A DNA stretch of 64,000 bases. Origin: Chitinophagaceae bacterium (lineage in GTDB: Bacteria; Bacteroidota; Bacteroidia; Chitinophagales; Chitinophagaceae). Shown piece after piece: positions 63,262 to 63,544 of the stretch. A program made the position numbers and the translations under genes. The notes below the pieces were generated by a model. It worked only from the letters and a program-made list of their open reading frames with translations. It was not told where the DNA came from and ran no database searches. The DNA is taken from positions 1-64,000 of the forward strand of contig JAMLHK010000014.1 in assembly GCA_023957155.1 (NCBI GenBank). The letters are read 5' to 3'. Position 1 is the stretch's first letter. Each line of letters opens with the position of its first letter.

Positions 63262-63360
63262 ATCGTTGCAGTTCAGTGGCAGCGCATCCCGCTGTTAGGC
63301 GGGAAGGTTGAGAGTTCTTTTAATGCGAAGTGAGAAGTGAAAGTGGCTCTCACATTGGCT
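63262..63360 (+). pseudogene. tRNA-like copy A with enlarged T-loop
   Basis: A 99-nt relative of tRNA-Thr(GGT) and copy B. The D arm is weakened (AGTTCAGTGGCAGCGCAT), the anticodon arm reads CCCGCTGTTAGGCGGG, and after the TTC of the T-arm come about 28 extra nt before CTCAC and a decayed acceptor CATTGGC. The 5' acceptor is altered (ATCGTTG). Unlikely to yield a working tRNA. Confidence 0.75.
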
Positions 63361-63366
63361 ATACAT

Positions 63367-63466
63367 GCCGTTGTAGCTCAGTGGTAGAGCATCCCGCTGT
63401 TAAGCGGGAAGATCGTGAGTTCTTTTTAATGCGAAGTGAGAAGTGAAAGTGGCTCTCACATTGGCT
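63367..63466 (+). pseudogene. tRNA-like copy B with T-loop insertion
   Basis: A 100-nt element whose first 30 nt are identical to the 5' end of tRNA-Thr(GGT) at 63473. The anticodon arm is CCCGCTGTTAAGCGGG: GTT would be an Asn anticodon, but the loop is 6 or 8 nt rather than 7. GTGAG/CTCAC forms a T-stem enclosing a 34-35 nt loop that contains GAAGTGAGAAGTGAAAGTGG. The 3' acceptor CATTGGC pairs with GCCGTTG except for one U-U and one G-U. Confidence 0.8.
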
Positions 63467-63472
63467 ATACAT

Positions 63473-63544
63473 GCCGTTGTAGCTCAGTGGTAGAGCACTT
63501 CCTTGGTAAGGAAGAGGTCGTGAGTTCAACTCTCATCAACGGCT
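63473..63544 (+). tRNA. tRNA-Thr (GGT)
   Basis: Seventy-two nt with acceptor GCCGTTG/CAACGGC, anticodon stem CTTCC/GGAAG, loop TTGGTAA (anticodon GGT), T-stem GTGAG/CTCAT with normal 7-nt loop TTCAACT, discriminator T. It is the intact third unit of the tandem array and precedes tuf as in many bacteria. Confidence 0.95.

Follow-up and report, generated by a model that had tools for sequence, protein, structure and literature searches.

tRNA genes rank among the most conserved sequences of genomes. Among the closest described counterparts of the tRNA copies reported here is the SegB system of phages T4/T6: according to the accessible text of the report, SegB is a phage GIY-YIG endonuclease that cleaves within tRNA genes and is required for tandem amplification of tRNA segments, for which the authors proposed a role of microhomology, and the motif RAWTSGAAC was present at 23 of 83 SegB cleavage sites (PMC13096335). 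As a sequence, the reverse complement of this motif resembles the T-loop GTTCGAAT. REP and CGTC/dRS3 elements are short palindromes whose loops vary; in the accessible text of one report, CGTC elements are recorded from five phyla including Bacteroidetes, and dRS3 is a CGTC-1 element (PMC3733652). Group I introns invade tRNA genes, and some of them carry a homing endonuclease gene, as stated in the accessible part of a third report (PMC3984707). Pseudo-tRNAs and tRNA fragments are partial, non-canonical copies that programs can call as genes.

The copies described below resemble the SegB system in that a small gene for a GIY-YIG nuclease adjoins tRNA genes, tRNA genes appear to have been broken, and tRNA segments are amplified in tandem. 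They differ in that SegB acts at a phage locus, for which the accessible text mentions no replaced anticodon arm or palindrome, and in that the array in the window (the whole 64-kb stretch of DNA analysed) is without a nuclease gene, no frame of the window having matched the GIY-YIG profile. The palindromes of the array differ from REP and CGTC/dRS3 elements in being free of a CGTC or GTAG tag (GCA-TCCCGC...GCGGGA-AG) and in replacing a tRNA arm. In contrast to ordinary pseudo-tRNAs, the copies stand in tandem beside an intact gene and have an arm swapped, and in contrast to genes invaded by group I introns, the arm is replaced rather than interrupted and an intact gene adjoins; covariance models detected no intron family in positions 60000-64000 up to E=1. 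No description of arm-swapped tRNA copies was found in the literature searched, which was thin on subscription papers.

The array (window positions 63262-63545, forward strand) lies between an intact tRNA-Gly(TCC) called by ARAGORN (63114-63187, forward strand) and the start of tuf, encoding EF-Tu, which occupies 63681-63998 of the forward strand and runs past the end of the window. The array consists of three units, of which only the last, unit C (63473-63545), is an intact tRNA-Thr(GGT), found by ARAGORN and Rfam, and the parent of the other two. Unit A (63262-63366) and unit B (63367-63472) are tRNA-Thr-derived remnants with a swapped anticodon arm and an expanded T-loop, recognized from sequence, repeats and alignment and, for unit B, from its RF00005 score. 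The tandem repeat at this site (period 106, 2.2 copies, 93% matches, score 403) is the highest-scoring of nine repeat rows in the window. Both remnants have TCCCGC-N6-GCGGGA at the expected position of the anticodon arm: the palindrome of unit A is TCCCGCTGTTAGGCGGGA (63287-63304, from sequence and pattern search) and that of unit B is TCCCGCTGTTAAGCGGGA (63392-63409, from pattern search and edge mapping at locus L388), which replaces positions 26-42 of the neighbouring tRNA-Thr. The 64-kb window has two sites of the shorter pattern CCCGC-N2..8-GCGGG, each of them in the array, and 5 of 100 shuffles reach this number. The array has no match elsewhere in its own genome.

The T-arm of unit B (63415-63459), delimited by eye, comprises GTGAG (63415-63419), a loop of 35 nt (63420-63454) that contains a second inverted repeat, GTGAGA/TCTCAC, and CTCAC (63455-63459). 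Unit A is more diverged, with the 5' strand ATCGTTG, and its T-arm (63310-63353, from sequence and alignment) consists of GAGAG, a long loop and CTCTCAC. Because alignment to the real tRNA sets the CTCTCACATTGGCT of the units opposite its CTCTCATCAACGGCT, the reading of this region as an expanded T-loop holds; the alignment favours a retained 3' strand of the T-stem and an acceptor strand that has decayed. The initial annotation had described three units with only the last a normal tRNA-Thr(GGT), an anticodon arm swapped in the first two, and an insertion in the T-loop; the repeat search, the tRNA predictions, the position of the palindromes and the alignment agree with it on each of these points. 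Sequences resembling the boxA of rRNA leaders were seen by eye in unit A (GAGTTCTTTTAAT) and unit B (GAGTTCTTTTTAAT), both overlapping the T-arm. A boxA-like AAGTTCTTTA, identified by comparison with those leaders by eye, precedes tRNA-Thr(TGT) in the window (62696-62705, forward strand). An interpretation of the T-loop insert purely as the junction of a boxA leader with a truncated tRNA is weakened for Thr by the alignment of the 3' T-stem and the acceptor strand to the real tRNA; it may still apply to copies of tRNA-Trp and tRNA-Arg.

Units A and B do not qualify as functional tRNAs. ARAGORN called only 63473-63545 among the three units, and Rfam model RF00005, with a cut-off of 29 bits, gave the intact unit 73.8 bits and unit B 24.2 bits; unit A was absent from its matches up to E=1. 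An Asn (GTT) anticodon can be read in the loop of unit B; the idea that the units might be a split or intron-bearing essential tRNA-Asn was discarded because an ordinary tRNA-Asn is present in the genome.

DNA of units A and B was compared with 58 genomes, of which 38 gave a match. Matches to more than one unit were found in the genome of the window (G000) and three of 11 other genomes of the genus (G009, G010 and G003, at 82%, 78% and 71% identity, respectively); most other matches covered only the tRNA-like part (about positions 97-161 of the query), and one genome of another genus (G021) matched over positions 52-161 at 74%. In G003, the Thr units follow the tRNA instead of preceding it, and a third unit has a palindrome in its T-loop. 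This search of related genomes had been proposed in the initial annotation, with assembly error and random decay as the outcomes that could overturn it. The genome is a 26-contig assembly, estimated to be 88% complete, and as such could harbour an artefact of assembly or binning; the recurrence of the array in three relatives speaks against that explanation, which we consider highly improbable, and the swap described below is too exact for random decay. The six Thr units of G000, G009 and G010 have invariant palindrome arms and varying palindrome loops, and their T-loop inserts are similar inside each genome and differ between genomes; the two copies inside one genome are nearly identical. This near-identity, the failure to qualify as tRNA, and the similar remodelling of copies of other tRNAs all agree with the earlier suggestion of a pseudo-tRNA undergoing duplication.

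Partial self-copies were sought beside other tRNA genes as local alignments with a score of at least 30 within 350 bp of the tRNA, upstream counts being for the same strand; the maximum in shuffled flanks was 28 in the G000 run and 29 in the run of five genomes. About a quarter of the tRNA genes of G000 (10 of the 40 called by ARAGORN, which left uncalled two weak RF00005 matches) adjoin a remodelled copy upstream, some swapped with single-nucleotide precision, and none have one downstream. Among the tRNA matches listed for four congeners, upstream and downstream copies were found at 7 and 3 of 37 tRNAs in G010, at 4 and 1 of 37 in G009, at 6 and 6 of 39 in G003 (including tRNA-Stop calls of the Thr array), and at 10 and 6 of 35 in G008; these genomes are not a random choice, three having been picked for possession of the Thr array, and a few genes are absent from the tRNA sets of the four. 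Antisense copies numbered zero upstream in the five genomes of the genus and one downstream, in G008. Three additional congeners, examined at their tuf clusters, have a downstream copy at 1 of 9 tRNAs. In other genera of the family, 46 tRNAs yielded no upstream copies and two downstream copies, one of which has its anticodon arm replaced by TCCCGATTTTGATCGGGA. As a control, 262 tRNAs in the 70 tRNA-bearing members of 80 diverse, mostly distant tuf loci (among the matches listed) gave no upstream copies and two downstream copies, both in one Flavobacterium assembly. Among the tuf loci listed, the named one of highest identity (91%, L207) comes from a Chitinophagaceae bacterium, which suggests that G000 is a member of this family.

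The copies directly adjoin the intact gene. Upstream copies end in or next to the T-arm in 44 of 53 rows of a scripted comparison, in which at least four of the 44 are low-score alignments and some rows are repeated, and 20 of 27 downstream rows start no earlier than base five of the tRNA. Tandem duplication of a leader together with its tRNA is weakened as the whole story, since the leader of the copy and that of the real gene are often different when compared by eye.

An RNA specific to the tuf leader, the other possibility raised in the initial annotation, is unsupported, because units similar to A and B also adjoin tRNA genes (Ala, Asp, Arg, Pro, Gly, Val, Lys, and Met) that are not part of the tuf cluster. 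A broader functional explanation is that the units are leader RNAs in which a stable hairpin and, after it, a boxA-like AGTTCTTTA form a boxB-boxA-like site of antitermination or processing between the promoter and the mature tRNA. Boxes of the type AAGTTCTTTGAAAG or AGATCTTTGAAAG are present in rRNA leaders, and AGTTCT-type motifs stand before several tRNA genes, often directly after the remnant (Trp, Asp, Arg-ACG, and Gly-GCC). Unit B folds better than most of its shuffles (z=-2.60, 2 of 200 folding as well), and the conservation of the palindrome arms throughout the three genomes could also mean an RNA function. Unit A, however, folds only weakly better than its shuffles (z=-1.65, 11 of 200), 30 of the 40 tRNA genes of G000 have no upstream copy at score 30, the presence of copies differs among congeners, and many copies in the relatives are downstream of the tRNA, behind its apparent terminator. 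A leader function seems fairly unlikely.

Replacement of an anticodon arm is not peculiar to the array in the window. Within the genus, the exact 17-nt arm has been replaced in copies of tRNA-Thr (G000, G009, G010, and G003), tRNA-Ala (G000) and tRNA-Pro(GGG) (G009, G003, and G010), in all of which the replacing palindrome is TCCCG-N-CGGGA, with edges that were set on the parent tRNA and in some cases rest on short matches. Trp, Gly, Asn, Met and Ile copies have part of an arm replaced, and Asp and Arg-ACG copies have an insertion in a loop instead of a swap. A survey with the pattern AGAGCA-TCCCG-N3..12-CGGGA found it in 62 of 396 genomes and 37 of 164 genera of the order (reversed control, 4 matches), and in 50 of 395 genomes and 35 of 171 genera of a phylum sample (reversed control, 1 match); the two samples overlap, and part of the matches were inspected. 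Some matches are not tRNA copies (L389, described below), and some may be due to chance.

In this pattern the left boundary is fixed and the right boundary constitutes the test. Inspection of 39 loci yielded 64 swaps, of which nine (at L380, L389, L402, and L417) have no intact tRNA for comparison. The 55 testable units come from 35 loci; 49 of them have an exact right edge, four have it off by one and one has it off by seven, and one is unmatched. Units in tandem at the same locus are not independent of each other, and L387 and L388 are once more the Thr arrays of G009 and of the window; at least one exact unit is present in 32 of the 35 loci. The testable swaps represent seven isotypes (Arg, Ala, Val, Thr, Lys, Met, and Asn). 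The inner stems, 30 distinct strings, have on average 2.13 extra Watson-Crick pairs, compared to 0.78 for re-paired halves and a largest value of 1.30 in 2000 re-pairings, from which the swapped element can be recognized as a true hairpin with a variable inner stem. The remodelling is recurrent, often anatomically precise, and phylum-wide rather than the property of a single locus. At L389 (G377), six tandem 123-bp units containing TCCCGAGGCTTCGGGA occur in a stretch without an intact tRNA, possibly a different repeat family.

Some arm-swapped units are called by ARAGORN as odd tRNAs: Stop(TTA) in L046 (1493-1567 and 1589-1663), Asn(ATT) in L394, and Ile(GAT) in L395. These are probably false genes, and the tRNA inventories of the phylum may therefore include others.

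The palindromes are concentrated in the copies. For three named palindrome families, the density in copies exceeds that in other tRNA flanks about 15-fold (based on 54 copies, three of which were admitted because the threshold for three tRNA names was lowered to 25), and is about 100 times that in the remaining sequence of the loci examined, which was taken as mostly coding. With the strict score of 30 and any GC palindrome admitted, 31 of 51 copies contain one, and the enrichment over other tRNA flanks falls from about 15 to 4.0. Palindromes of these types are also found elsewhere in the genome: TCCCGC-N2..10-GCGGGA has 22 sites, seven of them in tRNA copies (two Thr, three Ala, one Gly, and one Pro), against one site for the reversed pattern, and CCTGCC-N8-GGCAGG has nine exact sites, four of them in tRNA copies. 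Dispersed palindromes might accordingly have landed by chance in ordinary tandem duplicates of tRNA genes undergoing neutral decay. The exactness of the boundary in seven isotypes, an inner-stem complementarity far above that of re-paired halves, and the density of the three families in copies all speak against this explanation, which we judge improbable.

The D-loop of the Asp copy of G000 contains 20 bp (CCTGCCTGCCGGTAGGCAGG) that are absent from the Asp copies of G010 and G008, and it has lost no base; this comparison of orthologues suggests that a palindrome can enter by clean insertion. A stem-loop of greater length, GTAGAAAATC...GATTTTCAAGA, with TCCCG...CGGGA or a decayed version of this palindrome after it, was seen by eye to recur in copies of tRNA-Pro, tRNA-Asn, tRNA-Phe and tRNA-Met (L020, L008, L253, L295, L325, and L328). 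In the rRNA leader, between the GCA and GTAAGG that lie in the interval from boxA to the 16S gene, G000 and G008 have an AT-rich hairpin and G010 has TCCCGCAGCAATGCGGGA (L378; by eye); an rRNA match was not found in G003 or G009. The difference between G010 and the other two suggests that hairpin exchange extends past tRNA genes.

The replacement of one arm by another retains the local fold and drops the anticodon, as might be expected of tRNA-shaped, non-decoding decoys selected, for example, against toxins or nucleases that cut tRNA. Most copies, however, are unable to form a whole tRNA, given the loss of homology in the T-arm upstream and the late starts of most downstream rows, and the hairpin apparently swapped in the rRNA leader of G010 has nothing to do with decoding; such a role is very improbable.

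Several of the copies are associated with a nuclease gene. A small frame is located between the intact tRNA and its copy for tRNA-Asn (G010 and G008), tRNA-Asp (G008), tRNA-Arg(CCG) (G003), and tRNA-Pro(GGG) (G009 and G010), and in the Asn cases the GIY-YIG frame ends within the tRNA copy. All six proteins tested from such loci match PF01541 above the cut-off. In five genomes there are 52 rows for the GIY-YIG family, 39 with a frame shorter than 200 aa and 13 with a longer one; 15 of the 39 short frames lie no more than 300 bp from a tRNA in the list and have the same strand as that tRNA (distances taken by hand; one of these frames, in G000, scores under the family cut-off), and none of the 13 longer frames is as close to a listed tRNA. 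A profile built from the six proteins detected GIY-YIG frames in 8 of the 30 arm-swap loci of the order, the other 22 having none in the stretch examined, and in none of the 80 diverse tuf loci (among the matches listed) or the 12 tuf clusters of other genera.

The explanation that we favour, although not strongly, is that tRNA-Thr(GGT) gave rise to units A and B as non-decoding remnants, left by recurrent breakage and duplication with replacement of a hairpin, a process probably linked to GIY-YIG elements and similar to that of SegB. The loss of homology in the T-arm of upstream copies, the late starts of downstream copies and the SegB precedent suggest that copies arise by breaks in tRNA genes followed by duplication, and the small nuclease gene between the intact tRNA and the broken copy at several loci suggests that GIY-YIG elements drive the breakage. 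A tRNA gene would be broken, in many upstream copies at the point in the T-arm where homology now stops, and the partial copy would be duplicated in tandem next to the intact gene. The copy carries a GC-rich palindrome that replaces the anticodon hairpin, sits in the D-loop or T-loop, or replaces part of an arm, with template switching and hairpin processing as conceivable routes for a swap at the base of the stem, and the duplicates would then be amplified and kept similar within each genome. Cutting at these sites by GIY-YIG elements that behave like SegB would have driven the breakage at least in origin, arrays without a nuclease gene, such as that of the window, being decayed or non-autonomous derivatives whose RNAs presumably do nothing. 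If GIY-YIG elements are the cause, an activity demonstrated in a phage, the amplification of tRNA segments, would extend to bacterial chromosomes.

A bolder reading, which we hold to be possible but doubtful, is that Bacteroidota have a hairpin-exchange process that acts on DNA and swaps inverted repeats at the exact base of a stem, GIY-YIG homing cassettes splitting a tRNA at the anticodon arm, rebuilding an intact tRNA, and capping the displaced part with an uncuttable palindrome. The instances of such an exchange would be chiefly those in the duplicated tRNA genes, with a single one in an rRNA leader. If the exchange of hairpins takes place in DNA, a previously unknown process of recombination or replication would be at work.

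Other repeats and remnants were noticed in and near the window. On the same contig beyond the window, the intact tRNA-Trp downstream of tuf is directly preceded by a tRNA-Trp remnant (L032:4993-5090) whose anticodon arm contains CCCCGGTAGTCATCGGGG. Satellite-like repeats of 8 bp, AATTTGAA and AATTTTCA, occur at 799-881 and 63073-63108, the latter between tRNA-Tyr and tRNA-Gly. A 7-bp tandem repeat, CCTGTAC (10.9 copies, 59641-59716), lies in frame within a minus-strand open reading frame (59118-60059), which we take to be a prmC-like gene, and gives its protein a repeat of the type TGYRAQG.
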